Assembly (NCBI RefSeq): GCF_000025725.1
Contig: NC_013943.1
Span: 2,046,001-2,110,000 of the forward strand
Reading direction: 5' to 3'
DNA: 64,000 nt
Source of the DNA: Denitrovibrio acetiphilus DSM 12809
Lineage (GTDB): Bacteria; Chrysiogenota; Deferribacteres; Deferribacterales; Geovibrionaceae
In this document: piece by piece, positions 39,532 to 52,140 of the stretch
Position numbering within the stretch: position 1 is the stretch's first letter
Layout of the letters: the number at the start of each line of letters is the position of its first letter
Translations under genes and position numbers: made by a program
Notes under the pieces: generated by a model
Told to the model about the DNA's origin: nothing
Databases searched by the model: none
The model's input: only the letters and a program-made list of their open reading frames with translations

Positions 39532-40853
39532 GCTATAAAGCATATCCGTCATATAAAGACAGTGGTATTGAGTGGCTTGGAGAAATTCCTGAGCATTGGG
39601 CAATAGAAAGGTTTAAGTTTCAGCTGAGAGCTGGTTTTGAGGGTTTAAAAATTGGTCCTTTTGGCAGTCAAATAAAAGCAGAATTGCTTAGTGATGAAGG
39701 AATAAAAGTATATGGACAAGAAAATATAATTAAAAACAACTTTGACCTTGGTCATCGTTTCGTATCTGAAGAATTATTTTGTGAGTTAGAAGTATATGAA
39801 ACTCTACCTGGTGATATTTTAGTGACTATGATGGGGACTGCTGGCAGATGTCAGGTCACTCCAGAAAAGATCAATCAAGGGATTATAGATTCTCACCTTA
39901 TTAGGCTTCGTGTTAACAAGTGTTTGTTAAGCCGGTTTTGTAAGTATCTTATAAATGACTCTGCATATATTGAACATCAGATAAGGTTAATGGGCAAGGG
40001 CTCTATAATGCATGGGTTGAATTCGACGATCATTAAGAATCTTATTTTTATACTTCCCCCATTGAAAGAGCAAAGTATTATTTTGAAATATCTAGATAAA
40101 AAAACTGCTCAGATAGATGAACTGATTGATAAAAAGAAGAAACTGATAGAAAAGCTAGATGAAAAGCGTACTGCTCTCATTACTCATGCTGTCACAAAAG
40201 GCATGAACCCAGATGTGAAGATGAAAGACTCAGGCGTTGAGTGGCTGGGAGAAGTACCTGAACATTGGGACATAGTGAAAGCAAAATATCTATTCACAAT
40301 AGAAAAGCGTATTGCTGGGTTTTTAGGTCACGATGTCCTGTCTATCACGCAAACAGGTATAAAAGTTAAGGATATTGAATCCGGAGAAGGACAGCTTTCT
40401 ATGGACTACACAAAGTACCAAATAGTTAAAGTTGGCGACTTTGCTATGAACCATATGGACTTACTTACAGGATATGTTGATATATCGCAATTTGATGGAG
40501 TAACGAGTCCTGATTACAGAGTATTCAGATTGTCAGCTCAAAACTGTAATCCACAATACTATCTTTACCATATGCAAAGAGGATATAAGGAAAAAATCTT
40601 CTTTAATTATGGGCATGGAAGTGCACAGTTGGGACGCTGGCGTTTACCTACAGATGAGTTTAAGGAATTGTCCTTCCCTGTTCCTCCATATGAAGAGCAA
40701 CAAGCCATTGCTGAATACATAAGCAGTGAGACAATCCTAATAGACTCTCTAATTTCCAAAACTGAAGAAAGCATAAGCCTGCTGAAAGAAAAACGATCCG
40801 CACTGATAACCGCTGCGGTTACCGGTAAAATAGATGTCAGGGAGGAAGCCTAA
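39528..40853 (+). CDS. hsdS: Type I restriction-modification specificity subunit
   Basis: This 441-residue subunit has two target-recognition domains, each introduced by the same conserved element (KDSGIEWLGEIPEHW near residue 10 and KDSGVEWLGEVPEHW near 230), and each followed by a long helix ending EKRTALITHAV or EKRSALITAAV. The two recognition domains differ from each other, as expected for a bipartite target. It ends in TAATG overlap with hsdR. Confidence 0.94.
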   Translation: MSYKAYPSYKDSGIEWLGEIPEHWAIERFKFQLRAGFEGLKIGPFGSQIKAELLSDEGIKVYGQENIIKNNFDLGHRFVSEELFCELEVYETLPGDILVTMMGTAGRCQVTPEKINQGIIDSHLIRLRVNKCLLSRFCKYLINDSAYIEHQIRLMGKGSIMHGLNSTIIKNLIFILPPLKEQSIILKYLDKKTAQIDELIDKKKKLIEKLDEKRTALITHAVTKGMNPDVKMKDSGVEWLGEVPEHWDIVKAKYLFTIEKRIAGFLGHDVLSITQTGIKVKDIESGEGQLSMDYTKYQIVKVGDFAMNHMDLLTGYVDISQFDGVTSPDYRVFRLSAQNCNPQYYLYHMQRGYKEKIFFNYGHGSAQLGRWRLPTDEFKELSFPVPPYEEQQAIAEYISSETILIDSLISKTEESISLLKEKRSALITAAVTGKIDVREEA

Positions 40854-43800
40854 TGTCTACCGCTCACAGAGAAATACACTTTGAAGACTACATAGTAGAC
40901 CAACTGACCTCATCTGGCTGGGAAGTTGGCAAGCATACAGAATATGATCGTGGCAGGGCTCTATATTACCCTGATGTCCTTGCATGGATACAGGATAGCC
41001 AGCCTGAAACATGGGAAAAGCTTATCCGGATTCACGGCAGTGATACTGAACCTGCTGTGCTTGACAGGCTCGTGAAGTCTCTGGAGTCTAAAACAGGTGG
41101 GACAATAAATGTCCTTAGAAGAGGTTTTGGAATGGCAGGAGGCGGCACTATCCAGATGAGCCAGACCATGCCGGAAGACGACAGAAACGAAACTTCAGTA
41201 AAACGATATAATCAGAACCGCCTCCGCATTGTGAGACAGGTCAGATATTCCCTTGATAACGAAAACGCTATAGATCTTGTGGCTTTTATAAACGGTATCC
41301 CTGTGGCTACTTTTGAGCTTAAGACTGATTTTACCCAGTCTGTTGAGGCTGCAAAGGCACAGTACAAACAGGACAGGAAGCCAAAAAGCTCTTCATCAGG
41401 CAGACTGGAACCGCTTCTTGCCTTCAAAAGAGGAGCTATCGTTCACTTCGCAATGTCAGACTCTGAGGTATATATGGCGACCAAGCTTGACGGTGAGGCG
41501 ACATATTTCCTGCCGTTTAATCAGGGGAATGACGGAGCTGCAGGTAATCCGCCATCTGCCGAGAATAGCTACCCTGTCAGCTACATGTGGGAAAGGATAT
41601 TACAGAAAGACAACTGGCTTAGAATATTTCATAGATTTGTATTGATAGAGAAAAAGGAGTATGAGACCGCTTCCGGAGAGATACGCTTCAAAGAGACAAT
41701 GATATTTCCACGCTATCATCAGTGGGAATCTGTAACTAAAGTTATAGACGCAGTAAAGGTGGAAGAAGCCGGTCATCAGTATCTTATTCAGCATAGTGCC
41801 GGTTCGGGCAAGACAAATACTATCTCGTGGATATCCCACGAGCTTATAAGACTCAGGTATGCAAGCGGAGCATCATACTTCAACTCTGTTATCGTTGTTA
41901 CTGACAGAACGGTTCTCGATGCCCAACTACAGGAAGCCATCAGCCAGATTGAACACCAATACGGTGTTGTTCATGCTGTGGACAGAGAGGCATCAAGCCT
42001 TTCCAAAAGCCAACAGCTAGCAAATGCACTTATGACTGGCACACCTATCATTGTGGTAACAATACAAACTTTCCCATATGCTATGGAAGCAATTTTGACA
42101 GAGCAGAGCCTTCAGGATAAAAGATTCGCTGTCATTATGGATGAAGCCCATAACTCCCAGACAGGAAGCACAGCTCAGAAGCTGAGACAGGTACTGGCTC
42201 TGAATTCAAAGGCTGATATGGCTTCTATGACATCTGATGAGATACTTGAGATGATTCAGAAAGTGCGTGGTATGCCTAAGAATGTAAGCCACTTCGCTTT
42301 CACCGCAACTCCGAAACATTCCACGCTCTCATTATTCGGCAGACCTATGGATCCATCCAAGCCGCTTTCAAAAGATAATCCTCCGGTCCCATTCCATACA
42401 TATACTATGCAGCAGGCCATTGAGGAAGGATTTATACTCGATGTTCTGCAGAACTATACCCATTACGACACAGCATTCCGGATTGGCGAGAAATTCGTAA
42501 AGGATGAGACAAGAGTTGATGCTAAATATGCCAAGAGAGCTTTGGCAAGATGGGTGTCCCTGCACCCGACAAATGTATCTCAGAAGGTGGAGTTTATTGT
42601 TGAGCACTTTTATAGCAGTGTAGCTATGCTCCTGAACGGTCAGGCGAAGGCGATGGTTGTGACCAGCTCAAGGGCGGCAGCAGTGAAATATAAGCTAGCT
42701 TTTGATAAGTATGTTGAAAAAAAGGGGTATGTCGGCATACGCTCTCTAGTGGCCTTTTCCGGCCAGATACTTGGGAAAGATATCAATGATGACTTTAACC
42801 ACTTTCCTGACGACCAATCATTTACTGAAGATAATATGAATCCTGATACCAGGGGGCGTGATCTTCGTAAGGTTTTTGATACTCGTGAATATCAGGTAAT
42901 GCTTGTTGCAAATAAGTTTCAAACTGGTTTCGACCAGCCGAAGCTTGTTGCAATGTATCTGGATAAAAAGATATCCGGTGTGGAGGCAGTACAGACTCTT
43001 TCACGCCTGAACAGAACCTATGCGGGTAAAGACAAGACATATGTTATAGATTTTGCCAACAAGCCGGATGAGATAGTTGAGGCCTTTAAGACATATTACA
43101 AAAGTGCAGATGTGGCAAATGTGCAGGATCCTAATATCGTATATGATATGAAGGAGCGTCTTGACGGTATGCAGATGTTTGAAGCTGAAGAGGTTCGCCA
43201 GTTCGGTATTGCTATAACCTCAGCTAAAGTAACACATGAGAAGCTTTATTCACTTACACAACCGGCAACAGACCGTTTTAACGGGCGCATGAAGATGCTG
43301 AACAACGCAATTGAAGTTTCTGAAAAAGAATTTCTGCTGGCTAAGAGCAAGCAAGATGAGGCAGGAACAAAGAAAGCGGATGCCAGAAGGTCTGAGTATA
43401 CAAAAGCCCGTGACGAGCTCTTAATCTTCAGTGAGGGCTTAACCAAGTTTGTAAATATCTATGAGTATGTAGCTCAGTTGGTGGAGTTCGGAGATGCTTC
43501 TATAGAGTCTTTTGCTTCATACGCAAAATTGTTGAGCAAGAGACTCAAAGGTATAGCTCCAGAGCAGGTTGACCTGAACGGTCTACAGCTTACCCATTTC
43601 AAAATGACAGACACGGGCTCAGTTGATACACGACTTGATGCCGCAGACAAACCTCTGCTTGAACCCGCAAAAGGTACTGGTGGGCGTGATCCGAGAGACA
43701 GGGAAAGAGCATACCTTCAGGAGCTGATCAAAATGCTCAATGATGTATTCGGTAAGGATATCACCGATAAAGACAAGGTGGCCTTTGCGGTTCATGTCAG

Positions 43801-44053
43801 CGAGAAACTCAGAGACAATAAGAAAGTCATGGCTCAGGTTAAAAACAACAGCAGAGAACAGGCTATGAAAGCTGATCTGCCAGCCGAAGCCACAAAAGCT
43901 ATTGTGGGAGCTCTTGGCTCTCATCAGGCGATGGCAAAACGTCTTCTGAGTGATGAATTTACACGCAACACCTTCTTATCTGTTGTCTACGAACTTTTAA
44001 AGAGTGATGCTGTTGCCGGACTGATAACAGAAGCAAGGGATGAAGACCAATGA
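40853..44053 (+). CDS. hsdR: Type I restriction endonuclease subunit R
   Basis: This 1066-residue motor-nuclease translocates and cuts unmodified DNA. The N-terminal nuclease core has D...ELK (AIDLVAFINGIPVATFELKTD). The helicase motor has Walker A (HSAGSGKTNT), DEAH (IMDEAHNSQ), motif III (FAFTATPK), and motif VI-like QTLSRLNRT. Length is normal and all motifs are intact. Its TGA overlaps the start of the transposase gene (ATGA). Confidence 0.95.
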   Translation: MSTAHREIHFEDYIVDQLTSSGWEVGKHTEYDRGRALYYPDVLAWIQDSQPETWEKLIRIHGSDTEPAVLDRLVKSLESKTGGTINVLRRGFGMAGGGTIQMSQTMPEDDRNETSVKRYNQNRLRIVRQVRYSLDNENAIDLVAFINGIPVATFELKTDFTQSVEAAKAQYKQDRKPKSSSSGRLEPLLAFKRGAIVHFAMSDSEVYMATKLDGEATYFLPFNQGNDGAAGNPPSAENSYPVSYMWERILQKDNWLRIFHRFVLIEKKEYETASGEIRFKETMIFPRYHQWESVTKVIDAVKVEEAGHQYLIQHSAGSGKTNTISWISHELIRLRYASGASYFNSVIVVTDRTVLDAQLQEAISQIEHQYGVVHAVDREASSLSKSQQLANALMTGTPIIVVTIQTFPYAMEAILTEQSLQDKRFAVIMDEAHNSQTGSTAQKLRQVLALNSKADMASMTSDEILEMIQKVRGMPKNVSHFAFTATPKHSTLSLFGRPMDPSKPLSKDNPPVPFHTYTMQQAIEEGFILDVLQNYTHYDTAFRIGEKFVKDETRVDAKYAKRALARWVSLHPTNVSQKVEFIVEHFYSSVAMLLNGQAKAMVVTSSRAAAVKYKLAFDKYVEKKGYVGIRSLVAFSGQILGKDINDDFNHFPDDQSFTEDNMNPDTRGRDLRKVFDTREYQVMLVANKFQTGFDQPKLVAMYLDKKISGVEAVQTLSRLNRTYAGKDKTYVIDFANKPDEIVEAFKTYYKSADVANVQDPNIVYDMKERLDGMQMFEAEEVRQFGIAITSAKVTHEKLYSLTQPATDRFNGRMKMLNNAIEVSEKEFLLAKSKQDEAGTKKADARRSEYTKARDELLIFSEGLTKFVNIYEYVAQLVEFGDASIESFASYAKLLSKRLKGIAPEQVDLNGLQLTHFKMTDTGSVDTRLDAADKPLLEPAKGTGGRDPRDRERAYLQELIKMLNDVFGKDITDKDKVAFAVHVSEKLRDNKKVMAQVKNNSREQAMKADLPAEATKAIVGALGSHQAMAKRLLSDEFTRNTFLSVVYELLKSDAVAGLITEARDEDQ

Positions 44054-45360
44054 TTGATTTACTACAGTTAAAAGGTGTTAACCCCATAGGGCAGCGGATA
44101 GAAGATGATATTCTCCTTATACTTGCGGAGTCTAATGTTTCGGAGCCGGAGTCCTGTTCCGGATGCGGTTCAAAACCTGTATATAAACACGGTAAACGTA
44201 CACATGTTTATGCTGACACCCCTATGCATGGGATGCCTGTAAAAGTAGAGATAGAACGGCAGAGATACCGCTGTCAATCATGCGGAACCGTTATTGTACC
44301 CAATATACCATCTCTTGATGAAAAGCGAGTTGTAACAAAGCGGTTAATAGAATTCGTTCAGGCAAGGTGCTTTAACAACACCTTTACATTACTAGCAAAC
44401 GAAACCGGACTTGCAGTGAATACCATTAAAGCAATCGCCTTAGATTATACAGAAGATCTGGAAACTTCTGTATACAGGGAAACCCCAAGGCTGCTTGGTC
44501 TTGATGAAGTAATGATTTCGGGCGGTTACAGAGCTGTAATGGTTAACCTTGAGATGAATACTCTTTTCGATATCCATGACAACAGGAAGCTGGCAAGTAT
44601 GCGTCAGTATTTTGAGAAGCTGAAGGATAAAGACAATATTGAATGGGTTTGTGCGGATATGTGGGAACCATACAAGGTTCTCATTTCAGAGCAGATTCCA
44701 CAAGCAAAGCTTGTAATTGACAGATTTCATGTTGTAAGAATGGCTTCAAACGCTATGGAGCAAATCAGAAAAAAGCTTCAGAGCGAACTATCTCATTCAG
44801 AGCGGCTTAAGGTCAAAAAGAACATTCGCTGGTCACTGCTTAAAGGCAGTAAAAGCAAATCGGAATATGACCATGAGGTTGTTGAATATATCAGAGAAAA
44901 TTATCCGGAACTGGCTTTAGCTTATGATCTGAAGGAAACTTTTTTCAATATATATGAGTTCCCAGACAGAGCTTCCGGAGAGGCGGCATATAAAGAATGG
45001 AAAGATGCTATACCGCTGAAATTCAGCCCAGAGTTTAATACTGTCATCAAAATAGTGGATAGCCACTATGAGGACATTTTTAACTATTTTGACTGCCCTA
45101 TTACGAATGGCTACACAGAAGCCATGAACGGAGTTATGAAGGCGGCAAACCGCATGGGCAGAGGTTACAGTTATGAGGTTATTCGGGCGAAGCTGTTATT
45201 CTCTAAAATAGCCAGACAGTCAGGTAGTGTGATTGTTCAGCCATACAGCGACAGACCATCACATCTTAAAGAAGCATCTCCAAAAGAAAAATCTTTCAGG
45301 GACTATGGTGCGTCTATCCTAACTCTGGATACGATGTCAGAACGTGGGGAATTGGATTGA
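44050..45360 (+). CDS. tnpA: ISL3-family transposase
   Basis: This 436-residue DDE transposase begins with a zinc-finger pair (CSGCG...CQSCG), then a helix-turn-helix, then the catalytic Asp in LLGLDEV, the second Asp in VCADMWEPYK, and the Glu in TNGYTEAMNG. All three acidic residues are present and the frame is intact. The ATG overlaps the hsdR stop, so translation is likely coupled to the restriction operon. It is the only recombinase of the element and is the expected user of the 26-bp ends. Confidence 0.94.
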   Translation: MIDLLQLKGVNPIGQRIEDDILLILAESNVSEPESCSGCGSKPVYKHGKRTHVYADTPMHGMPVKVEIERQRYRCQSCGTVIVPNIPSLDEKRVVTKRLIEFVQARCFNNTFTLLANETGLAVNTIKAIALDYTEDLETSVYRETPRLLGLDEVMISGGYRAVMVNLEMNTLFDIHDNRKLASMRQYFEKLKDKDNIEWVCADMWEPYKVLISEQIPQAKLVIDRFHVVRMASNAMEQIRKKLQSELSHSERLKVKKNIRWSLLKGSKSKSEYDHEVVEYIRENYPELALAYDLKETFFNIYEFPDRASGEAAYKEWKDAIPLKFSPEFNTVIKIVDSHYEDIFNYFDCPITNGYTEAMNGVMKAANRMGRGYSYEVIRAKLLFSKIARQSGSVIVQPYSDRPSHLKEASPKEKSFRDYGASILTLDTMSERGELD

Positions 45361-47186: not shown

Positions 47187-47543
47187 CTATATCTCTGTGC
47201 AGTCCAACTTCTCCTTAACTTTTCCTATGATATCAGCAGACTCCATGAGCCCCCAGCACAAAGGTTTACCGTTAAGTGATATATAAGGGAAAGGAAGCCT
47301 TCCATCAACAATATTTGTTACATCGTCGATATACTCAAGCACTTCAGGAGAAGAGACATCAATATAGCTGAAATCAACATTCTCCTTCCCGTATTCCGCT
47401 GTGAGCATGGCATCCATTTTATATGACAGCTCTTCATAAGGATCATCTTTAACCCCGCAACCTGAGGGGAAATATGAGGGGCTTCAGCCGGAGACAAACT
47501 CCATGCTGCTGCCAAACATTCTGACAACAATTACATTTTCCAC
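47187..47543 (-). CDS. Probable selenoprotein (UGA-coded Sec20), thioredoxin-like
   Basis: A minus-strand frame starts at GTG 47543 with AGGAG 6 nt upstream, 12 bp after purF, and runs 118 codons to 47187 with a single in-frame TGA at 47486-47484 (residue 20). Around it the protein reads FGSSMEFVSG-U-SPSYFPSGCG; a Cys follows nine residues later. A hairpin with an AGGUU apical loop lies 15-31 nt after the UGA. Downstream the fold (FSYIDVSSPE, then LPFPYISLNGKPL with a cis-Pro-like FPYI) resembles small thioredoxin-like YuzD/glutaredoxin proteins. If UGA is stop, the product would be a 76-residue fragment from 47417 with no ribosome-binding site. A nonsense mutation is the alternative. Confidence 0.7.
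47453..47469 (-). promoter_or_regulatory. Candidate bacterial SECIS element
   Basis: On the minus strand CCCC (47469-47466) pairs with GGGG (47456-47453). Inside is a U-C mismatch, a C-G pair and the apical loop AGGUU. The GGU lies 22-24 nt after the UGA, against 19-21 in E. coli fdhF, whose loop is AGGUCU. A flanking UUU/AAA pairing with two bulged U can extend the stem. Confidence 0.55.
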
Positions 47544-47555
47544 ATTAAGCTCCTG

Positions 47556-48920
47556 TTAATCACCGTTGTGGTGCATGGTGGGGTACGCTCCGCTAAAGCA
47601 GGCATGACAATAGTCATAGCTCTGAACGCACTCCATCAGACCATCAATGCTCAGATAGTGCAGACTATCCGCTGTTATGTATTTTCTTGTTTCTTCTATT
47701 GTATGAGTAGATGCGATAAGTTCCTTTCTGGTAGGAGTGTCTATGCCGTAGAAGCATGGAAAAGCTGTGGGAGGGCTGCTTATGCGCATATGCACCTCTT
47801 TTGCTCCCGCCTCTCTCAGCATCTTCACTATCTTGCGGCTGGTTGTACCACGGACGATAGAATCATCCACAACAACAACTCGTTTTCCTTCTATCACCTC
47901 ACGCACAGGATTAAGCTTTATCTTTACTCCGAAGTGTCTGATAGACTGGCTAGGCTCAATAAATGTACGCCCGACATAATGATTTCTCATAAGCCCCATC
48001 TGAAAAGCCATCCCGCTCTTTTCAGAATACCCCAGAGTCGCAACGACACCGGAGTCAGGAACAGGGATAACAAGATCCGCCTCAACATCATCTTCTTCAG
48101 CAAGCTTTACACCAAGGCGTTTGCGCACTTCATAAACACTGTTGCCGAAAATAAATGAGTCAGGTCTTGCGAAATAGATATGTTCAAAAACGCACGGTCT
48201 CGGAGCTGTTTTCTCAAACGGAAATATTGACTTAAGACCGTCATCGTCAATAATAACCATCTCGCCCGGCTCTATCTCCCGCACCATTGTAGCTTCTATA
48301 AGGTCAAGCGCGCAGCTTTCAGAAGTAAGTATATAGCCGTTCTTCAGCTTCCCAAGGACAAGCGGACGCATCCCCATCGGGTCACGTACACCTATCAGCT
48401 TATCATTTGTCATAAGGAGAAGTGAAAAAGCACCCTTAAGCTGTGAAAGAGCCGTAACAATAGAATCGAGCAGATCTTCTTTTTTACTCTTGGCTATGAG
48501 GTGAACTACCACTTCAGTGTCGGAACTGGAATTGAAAATAGCCCCTTGCTTCACCAGCTCCTGTTTAATTTCGTCTGCATTTACTATATTACCGTTATGG
48601 GCAAGAGACATCACACCGGCGTTGATCGTTACTGTTATAGGTTGGGTGTTCTGGAGCTCAGAAAGTCCTGTTGTAGCATATCTATTGTGCCCTATCGCAA
48701 TATCCCCTGTGAGCCTGTCAAGCTTCTCCTGAGAGAAGATATCAGCCACAAGCCCCATCCCTTTTTCTGTTGCTATCTCATTGCGGTTGCTCACAGCAAT
48801 ACCTGCACCTTCCTGCCCTCTATGCTGAAGAGCATAAAGCGAAAGGTAAACGAGATTTGCAGCGTCTTCGTTGGCATAGACACCTGCCACACCGCATTCT
48901 TCGTGAAACTTATCAAACAT
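47556..48920 (-). CDS. purF: Amidophosphoribosyltransferase
   Basis: This 454-residue enzyme makes phosphoribosylamine from PRPP and glutamine, the first step of purine synthesis. The Ntn-type glutaminase Cys is expected at residue 9 after a short propeptide ([15 protein letters not shown]). The PRPP-binding motif [13 protein letters not shown] is present. It overlaps purL by 8 bp and is followed by the selenoprotein gene. Confidence 0.96.
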
Positions 48921-51147
48921 TCATTTTATCCCCGATGCTGTTTTTCCAGATAGTCTCAGCATCTTTAACCGGAAGGCTAATAACTTTTTCCCTGCCGGAT
49001 GAAATCTCTATCCTGTCACTTGTCGTACGCCCTATTCTGCTTATGGGCAAGCTGTATTTCCCAGCGAGTTTTTCAACTGCTCTGGCGTTTACATTGGACA
49101 CTTCCAGCAGAACGCGTCCATGATTTTCACCAAACAGAAGTTTATCATTACGGAGACTGCTTTCGAGTTTGATATCCACACCAAGGTTTTCACCTCCGAA
49201 TGTCATTTCGCAAACAGCCACAGCAAGTCCGCCGTCGGATATGTCGTGTGCTGAACTAACCAGTCTGTTGTCAGCAGCTTCGCACATAAAATCTATAATA
49301 GCCTTCTCACGATCAAGATCAACAGCCGGAGCATCCCCCGCCTCTCTCCCGTGAACGAAAGCAAGATATTCAGAACCGCCTATATGTCCGTCATTCTCCC
49401 CAAGGAGATAAATAGTGTTGCCCGAGTCTTTAAAGTATGAGCCTATGCGTTTGGTAACATCATCTATGACACCAACCATAACAATTGTCGGTGTCGGCTG
49501 GATAGGTACACCTTCTGTTTCGTTATAAAGCGATACGTTACCGCTCACAACCGGAGTTTCTAAAACTTTTGCAGCCTCACATATCCCCTCAACTGCAGTT
49601 ACGAACTGCCACATAATCCCCTCTTTCTCAGGGTTTCCGAAGTTCAGGCAATTTGTAAAGGCTTTCGGTCTCGCACCGCTCACAGCGACGTTTCTCGCTG
49701 ACTCAGCAATAGCTGCCTTCCCCCCTTCAAAAGGGTTCAGATAGCAGTATCTGCTGTTGCAGTCACTGGACATGGCAACGCCCACTTCTGATTCGTTCAG
49801 GCGTATAAGTGCCGCATCACTGCCAGGGAGCTGTACTGTTCCCACACGTACCATATGGTCGTACTGTTCCCAAACCCACCGTTTTGAAGCGATGGTAGGG
49901 TTGGCAAGCATTTTTAAAAGCACTTCCTGAAGGTCTTCCGGTTCGTCAACATCGACAGTTTTCTGAAGCTCGTCCTGTGACGCAGGTCTTGAATAAGGTC
50001 TTTCATATTTCGGAGCTTCGTTTGCCAGCGGAGCAGCCTCCAGAGCGGCAACTTCTTCTCCGTTCCATGTGAGGCGAACATATCCGTCATCAGTAACTTC
50101 ACCGATAACAGAAGCGTCAAGATCCCACTTTTCGAATATATCTTTAACTTTGTCCTCATAGCCCTTTTTAGCAACCATGAGCATACGTTCCTGAGACTCT
50201 GAAAGCATGATCTCATAAGGGGTCATACTGTTTTCACGTACAGGCACTCTGTCAAGGTCAAGCCTGACGCCTGAGCCTGAATTGGATGCCATCTCAAAAG
50301 CAGAGCTTGTAAGCCCGGCAGCGCCCATATCCTGAATACCGACAATATAATCGGTTTTCATAAGCTCCAGACAAGCCTCAAGGAGCAGTTTTTCTTTAAA
50401 AGGATCACCAATCTGAACATTCGGGCGTTTAGCCTCGCTGTTTTCGTCGAACTCAGCAGAAGCCATTGTGGCGCCATGTATGCCGTCACGTCCTGTTTTA
50501 GCACCAACATATATTACAGGATTACCCTTACCTTCTGCCTTGGCTAGAAATATTTTATCTTTCTGCACAACACCGAGAGCAAAAGCATTGACCAGCGGGT
50601 TACCGTTGTAACAATCATTAAAATAGACTTCCCCGCCTACAGTGGGCACACCGAAGCAGTTGCCGTAGTGGGATATCCCCTCCACAACTCCTTCGAATAT
50701 GTATCTGTTTTTAGGGTTATCAAGTCCACCGAAACGGAGTGAGTTCATAGCAGCAACAGGTCTTGCACCCATGGTAAAGACATCCCGAAGGATACCTCCG
50801 ACACCGGTTGCAGCCCCCTGAAAGGGCTCTATAAATGAAGGGTGGTTGTGTGATTCCACTTTAAAGCAGACACAAAGCCCCTCGTCGTTTACTGATATAA
50901 CACCTGCATTTTCCCCCGGCCCCTGAACCACCCAGGGCGCTTCCGTAGGAAACTTTGCAAGATGAACACGGCTTGATTTATAGGAGCAGTGTTCGGAATA
51001 CATAGATGAAATAATACCAAGCTCTATATAGTTCGGGGTTCTGCCGAGGAGATTTTCAACGCTCTCAAACTCTGCCTGAGAAAGTCCCATCTCTTTTGCG
51101 ACCGTAAAGGTCACTTTCGGGTAGCCGAAGCTTTCGTATACGCTCAT
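48913..51147 (-). CDS. purL: Phosphoribosylformylglycinamidine synthase subunit PurL
   Basis: This 744-residue synthetase subunit works with PurQ and PurS to make FGAM. Conserved features include [34 protein letters not shown] and [10 protein letters not shown]. Length fits the small PurL type that needs PurS and PurQ. It overlaps purQ by 4 bp. Confidence 0.97.
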
Positions 51148-51842
51148 GCGGCACCCCCTATCGCTTTCATAATTGACTCAAAAAGAAAATATCCGTCTCT
51201 GGTTTCCATAACACCCTCTGTACAGCGTTCCGGATGAGGCATCATGCCGAGCACATTCCCGGCTTCGTTCACAATACCTGCGATATTATTAAGGGAGCCG
51301 TTAGGGTTGGTCGAGTCTATACATTCGCCGTTTTCGTCACAATACCTGAAGACAACCTGATTATTCTCTTCAAGCTTCGCAAGACCTTCCGGATCGATGT
51401 AGTAATTCCCGTCCATATGTGCGACAGGTATCCCCACAACCTCGCCGGCTGCGTACATTCTTGTAAAAGGTGTATCGGAGTTCTCAACACGAAGGTTCAG
51501 GTATTTACAGATAAACTTCAGGTCGCGGTTACGCATAAGCGCCCCCGGCAAAAGACCTGTCTCTGTCAGTACCTGAAAACCGTTACAAATCCCGAGAACC
51601 TTCCCACCTTTATTCGCGAAATCAACAATTTCACTCACAATGGGAGAAAACTTAGCTATAGCTCCGCTGCGAAGATAATCTCCATAGGAGAAACCGCCAG
51701 GAAGAACCACAAGATCGACCCCCTGAAGATCGGTATCCTTATGCCACAGGAAAACAGTATCAACGCCCATAACGTGCTTCAGCACATGATAACAGTCGTG
51801 GTCACAGTTTGAACCTGGAAAAACAACAACACCTGCTTTCAT
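51144..51842 (-). CDS. purQ: Phosphoribosylformylglycinamidine synthase subunit PurQ
   Basis: This glutaminase subunit has about 232 residues: [18 protein letters not shown] at the N-terminus, the nucleophile Cys in GICNGFQVL, and the catalytic His/Glu in [10 protein letters not shown]. The start at 51842 gives the usual N-terminus; a frame start at 51857 would overlap purS. Confidence 0.96.
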
Positions 51843-51846
51843 ATTA

Positions 51847-52080
51847 TTAATCCACAAACTCTATTGAATATTCTTCAATAATAGGGTTGGAAAGAAGATC
51901 CGCAGAAATTTTCTCCAGCTCTTTCTCACAGGATTTATCCTTAACTTCTATCTCAAAAAACTTGCCCACACGAACCTCTGTGGCGAAATCATAACCCATA
52001 CGCCCAATTGAACCAAGGATCGTTTGCCCCTGAGGATCAAGGACACCTTCTTTAAGTTTGACAAAGACTTTAACCTTCAT
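51847..52080 (-). CDS. purS: Phosphoribosylformylglycinamidine synthase subunit PurS
   Basis: This is a 77-residue subunit that bridges PurL and PurQ. The sequence [21 protein letters not shown] is typical. ATG at 52080 has AAAGGTG 6 nt upstream. It is the first gene of the purSQLF operon. Confidence 0.93.
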
Positions 52081-52140
52081 ATAAAGCACCTTTTATTTTC
52101 TGAATTAATTTTCAGGATTTACTAATTTGAAAGAAGTTTT

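Follow-up and report, generated by a model that had tools for sequence, protein, structure and literature searches.

We analysed 64,000 nucleotides of Denitrovibrio acetiphilus DSM 12809 (contig NC_013943.1, positions 2,046,001 to 2,110,000), hereafter the window, in which positions are counted from the first letter. On the minus strand, at 47187..47543, lies a frame that starts with GTG, ends with TAG and is open throughout except for a single TGA at codon 20 (47484..47486). From sequence comparison, we conclude that this is very probably the gene for a 118-residue selenoprotein of thioredoxin fold, a relative of DUF1462 (YuzD-like) proteins in which the UGA at codon 20 specifies selenocysteine (Sec20). 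A ribosome-binding site, AGGAG (47550..47554, minus strand), stands 6 nt 5' of the GTG, where relatives are also G-rich, and in the alignment the relatives' ATG starts fall on the GTG. An earlier note on this DNA, made from the letters alone, had proposed this start, a good ribosome-binding site and a UGA at codon 20, and the frame, the AGGAG and the relatives' starts all agree with it. Gene finders that treat UGA as a stop would truncate the protein; as that note anticipated, mechanical calling of open reading frames (ORFs) under the standard code yields only a fragment from 47417, 76 residues long instead of 118.

Among 51 Deferribacterota genomes searched, 19, in seven genera, carry the gene, in 20 copies altogether, and every one of these homologues has TGA at the same place (20/20). 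They are 50-73% identical, and the fourteen that entered alignment A1 show 51-73% identity to the window protein. The mean ratio of non-synonymous to synonymous change (pN/pS) is 0.20 on the 5' side of the TGA and 0.30-0.37 on the 3' side, which points to selection on the two halves together, as parts of a single protein. Across the family alignment Sec20, Pro22 and Pro86 are invariant, apart from one protein, L145, at Sec20. The earlier note held that relatives with unrelated sense codons at this site would speak against selenocysteine; all convincing relatives, in the Deferribacterota and in the Chloroflexota described below, have UGA there. Profile searches of 385 plus 301 genomes found no version with Cys at the Sec position, and none appeared in Deferribacterota genomes without a Sec system. 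As possible relatives with Cys, only the distant DUF1462 proteins of Bacilli come into question, and for them the correspondence of the active-site column is ambiguous. Weak hidden Markov model matches outside the Deferribacterota (E 0.005-0.5) appear to be due to chance, and the five that we inspected agree with this. Another match, L153 in G478 (E = 0.016), lacks a UGA at the site and was judged a chance match, and L134, a CxxC thioredoxin-like frame, was set aside as not clearly a family member. A plasmid search with the selenoprotein sequence gave no match.

The earlier note had named selA, selB, selC and selD as the genes to look for. All four are present in the window's genome (3,222,077 bases in one contig). 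The tRNA for selenocysteine (tRNA-Sec, selC) scores 66.8 bits against a cut-off of 47, SelA and SelB were also found, and the gene for SelD itself carries an in-frame TGA. Among the 51 Deferribacterota genomes, tRNA-Sec lies well above the cut-off in 18 of the 19 that have the gene and in 5 of the 32 that do not (Fisher p = 2e-8), where weaker matches near the cut-off were read as other long-arm tRNAs. Ten of the 32 long ORFs in the window (250 residues or more) end in TGA, and thus UGA is a normal stop here.

The earlier note also placed a hairpin with an AGGUU loop at the correct distance after the UGA. This selenocysteine insertion sequence (SECIS) element (47453..47469, minus strand) has a 6-bp stem, in the window with one U-C mismatch, and its AGGUU loop occupies 47463-47459. 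The stem begins 17 nt 3' of the first base of the UGA. Numbered from the T of TGA, bases 18-23 pair with 29-34 around a loop of AGGUU or AGGCU, so that the element spans codons 25-31; it thereby has what is expected of a bacterial SECIS, a hairpin with G in its apical loop, just 3' of the UGA. Both covariation and codon restriction point to its function. The third position of codon 25 and the first of codon 31 form a pair in 19 of 19 sequences (C-G in eight, U-A in eight, U-G in two, G-U in one). Codon 27 ends in CA in all sequences, though it encodes Ser, Thr or Ala, and its first base is matched to the third base of the Cys29 codon; GCA occurs with TGC as the Cys29 codon in 8/8 and ACA with TGT in 5/5, while TCA is mismatched. 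Codon 30 is GGG in 19/20. Overall, 92.6% of stem cells are paired, compared with 85.8% in shuffles; the paired cells and covariation score exceed all 500 shuffles (0/500), and 12 cells are changed on both sides where 3.5 are expected. As related sequences are not independent events, the covariation counts overstate the number of changes. Every slid register is far worse than the proposed one, and RNAalifold recovers the same helix unprompted. An Rfam scan of L135 matched no SECIS model.

The predicted structure supports the view, put forward in the earlier note, that the frame on both sides of the UGA forms one thioredoxin-like protein. Two AlphaFold models (predicted local distance difference test, pLDDT, 72.9 and 79.4) share a beta-alpha-beta-alpha-beta-beta-alpha order with Sec in a poorly modelled loop before the first helix. 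Foldseek matches to the first model include many thioredoxins and SelW. For the model from the deeper alignment, the DUF1462 structure 1xg8 of Staphylococcus aureus ranks first (E = 1.8e-4, probability 1.00) and ArsD is the second match in the PDB; since the template-modelling (TM) scores to 1xg8 are only 0.50-0.54, we take these likenesses to be at the level of the fold. The sequence profile also matches 1xg8 (hmmsearch, E = 6.2e-6). Against Pfam DUF1462 (PF07315, cut-off 25 bits), three members score above the cut-off (L019, 26.1; L156, 29.1; L147, 42.9), and the window protein falls below it at 17.6. What the family shares with DUF1462 is the thioredoxin-fold core; what sets it apart is Sec in the active-site loop. 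ArsD, a metallochaperone (PF06953, NF033727; PDB 3mwh), resembles it in its thioredoxin-like fold, in a Cys or Sec before Gly/Ser-Pro, and in the location of some copies in ars clusters (see below). However, the three-Cys site of ArsD is absent from the Deferribacterota proteins, and all family matches are below curated cut-offs: the best Pfam score is 20.0 bits against a cut-off of 27, with a weak match for two members, and the NCBIfam ArsD model, NF033727, touches 1 of 32 members at E = 0.0047. hhalign pairs the Sec position with the Cys of the ArsD VCGP motif at a probability of only 23%. DUF1462 and ArsD have both been placed in the thioredoxin-like clan (PMC3091736). Known thioredoxin-like selenoproteins, which likewise have Sec at the redox position of the fold, are Trx (UxxC), SelW (CxxU), SaoT (UxxC), Sec.1 (CxU), Sec.2 (UxC), HUIPC and VPGUxxT (PMC13188914); the motif here differs, being (F/C)xxGUxP, or CUGP in the Dehalogenimonas-like members introduced below.

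The family extends beyond the purF-linked genes. Two Deferribacterota genomes have a second, divergent UGA-containing paralogue, about 30% identical and with the motif CxxGUMP (L080, G023:C2:132625-132975; L084, G019:C5:152559-152879), which in both adjoins a gene for a cytochrome b5-domain protein and a methyltransferase gene. When 301 genomes from a second phylum, which we take to be Chloroflexota, were searched with a profile, further relatives with UGA emerged. Six genomes of one genus, one of whose chromosomes is presumably that of Herpetosiphon aurantiacus, and one cousin have the motif CxYGUGPRMPS. Eight small genomes, one presumably of Dehalogenimonas lykanthroporepellens, have (S)CUGP or C(T/G)(S/G)GUSP. 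The remaining Chloroflexota relatives are two paralogues in G463 and one in G503. tRNA-Sec is present in 6/6 genomes of the Herpetosiphon-like genus, in 8/8 Dehalogenimonas-like genomes and in G463. Most Chloroflexota subfamilies have their own separate hairpin after the UGA, and in the Dehalogenimonas-like genomes CAATCGTC-GGA-GACGATTG after the UGA is invariant (8/8). Seven of the eight Dehalogenimonas-like copies (L146, L148-L152, L154, L155) come immediately after acr3, the gene for an arsenite exporter, in clusters (contexts L160-L165) that contain ArsR, ArsP-like permeases, an ArsE-like thioredoxin, or ArsD and ArsA; these acr3-linked copies are candidate arsenic-linked selenoproteins.

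In one of the G463 paralogues, L145 (G463:C145), Sec and Cys seem to be swapped within the motif, UGSSCGP as compared with CxxGUGP, and this suggests that Sec and Cys form a redox pair. MAFFT placed the Cys of L145, rather than its Sec, in the Sec20 column, which is the exception at the otherwise invariant position 20.

Several observations weigh against our interpretation. Folding of the window's SECIS region as a single sequence is not significant (z = 0.36), so the hairpin of the earlier note stands on comparative covariation and not on the window sequence alone. At the stem pair of columns 25-33, 6 of the 18 distinct sequences have a mismatch, and that of the window is one of them. tRNA-Sec above the cut-off is missing from G026, a metagenome-assembled genome (MAG) that has the gene, and from the Chloroflexota genomes G443 and G503, possibly because their assemblies are incomplete. 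Confidence in the model of the active-site loop is low, with block means of 58 and 42 over residues 11-30. Finally, the Chloroflexota copies are not beside purF, and the link to PurF considered below is guilt by association.

Two other explanations of the UGA have to be weighed against selenocysteine. A decayed gene or a sequencing error, with the UGA a true stop and the product either the fragment from 47417 or nothing, would agree with what mechanical ORF calling yields. We consider this exceedingly improbable, as the same stop recurs in 20 homologues that have diverged to 50-73% identity, purifying selection is seen on both sides of it, the upstream part and the start site are conserved, and the hairpin co-varies. 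Readthrough with another amino acid, by Trp insertion or near-cognate suppression, would also account for an open frame; it too is very improbable, given that UGA ends nearly a third of the long ORFs in the window, that the gene tracks tRNA-Sec, that a SECIS hairpin follows the UGA, and that the UGA falls where a thioredoxin fold has its redox site. Selenocysteine at codon 20 is thus well supported by the comparative evidence.

The gene lies at the end of a purine biosynthesis cluster on the minus strand. purF (amidophosphoribosyltransferase, 47556..48920) has its stop 12 nt before the selenoprotein start and is preceded by purL (48913..51147), a conserved neighbour in all 20 loci, and by purQ (51144..51857) and purS (51847..52089), which complete a conserved purSQLF cluster. 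At all 20 Deferribacterota loci the selenoprotein gene follows purS-purQ-purL-purF on the same strand, its best candidate start 2-15 nt after the purF stop, and the genes further downstream vary; the G017 locus was counted through its identity to G015 in the compared 3.3-kb locus ends, not from long context. The window's PurF has an N-terminal Cys9 behind an 8-residue leader and further cysteines at 243, 389, 438 and 441, which we take, as predicted cluster ligands, to match the arrangement in the [4Fe-4S] enzyme of Bacillus. A separate observation concerns the MAG G025, in which the entire purSQLF-selenoprotein block occurs twice (L012 and L028, on G025:C7 and G025:C16), probably from two strains binned together.

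We propose that the selenoprotein is probably translated from the purSQLF message and that SelB with Sec-tRNA-Sec would bind the hairpin just 3' of the UGA, placing Sec at position 20. Sec20 would then sit in the loop that joins beta-1 to alpha-1, the place of the active-site cysteines in thioredoxins, and Pro86 would be the cis-proline. The resolving residue may be Cys29 in the purF-linked subfamily and, in most others, a Cys that precedes Sec by one to five residues. The earlier note had singled out the Cys nine residues after Sec as part of a redox site; it is invariant in the purF-linked subfamily and is not kept in the wider family, which leaves Sec20 and Cys29 as a plausible redox pair for the window protein. 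The product is most likely a selenol/thiol oxidoreductase, a redox activity that we infer from these features.

What such an enzyme would act on is a matter of more tentative judgment. We lean, with reserve, towards its operon partner PurF, which has a catalytic N-terminal Cys and a predicted [4Fe-4S] cluster and which the selenoprotein would protect or repair; handling of a metalloid or of selenium species comes next. A thiol peroxidase or thioredoxin-like reductant of general function, simply carried along by a constitutive purine operon, would suit the thioredoxin fold and the thioredoxins and SelW among the matches to the first model, yet the position behind purF is kept in 19 genomes while the downstream genes change, and we find this doubtful. 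It is unlikely that the protein is instead an ArsD-like selenoprotein that binds or reduces arsenic, antimony or selenium species and does not serve PurF. The copies that follow acr3 within ars clusters, the rank of ArsD among the fold matches, its weak Pfam matches and the low-probability hhalign pairing with VCGP would favour such a role, but the Deferribacterota copies are beside purF rather than ars genes and have no second Cys near Sec. For the acr3-linked proteins themselves a metalloid role is the one we would favour, speculatively. Both roles could come down to one chemistry, such as freeing vicinal or Fe-S cysteines of metalloids or oxidants that react with thiols. A stronger version, which we also think unlikely, is a dedicated Sec-dependent maintenance of PurF that keeps its catalytic Cys, its Fe-S cluster or both reduced or metalloid-free, with sister subfamilies acting alike in arsenic resistance; if true, selenium supply would be wired into de novo purine synthesis.

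The earlier note called this selenoprotein undescribed, and the resources that we consulted bear this out. No model of NCBIfam release 20 (June 2026) is dedicated to the family, no member matches any of the selenoprotein models there, and two of 32 members touch a thioredoxin model. Of the 119 families or subfamilies of prokaryotic selenoproteins inventoried in 2026, none has DUF1462 or a matching motif (PMC13188914). Searches of open-access full texts turned up no account of a DUF1462/YuzD selenoprotein, nor of one for Denitrovibrio or purF, paywalled work and unreleased annotations being beyond reach, and two Dehalogenimonas genome papers mention no Sec proteins other than SelD and formate dehydrogenase. 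Our findings would thus add a family that spans two phyla to the known selenoproteins, offer a hypothetical redox site for DUF1462, a family of unknown function, and connect selenium with a core biosynthetic operon and, in other lineages, with arsenic resistance.

Elsewhere in the window, a transposase-like gene at 44050-45360 on the plus strand (zinc-ribbon, ISL3-like by eye) directly follows an ORF that resembles HsdR of type I restriction systems (40853-44053).
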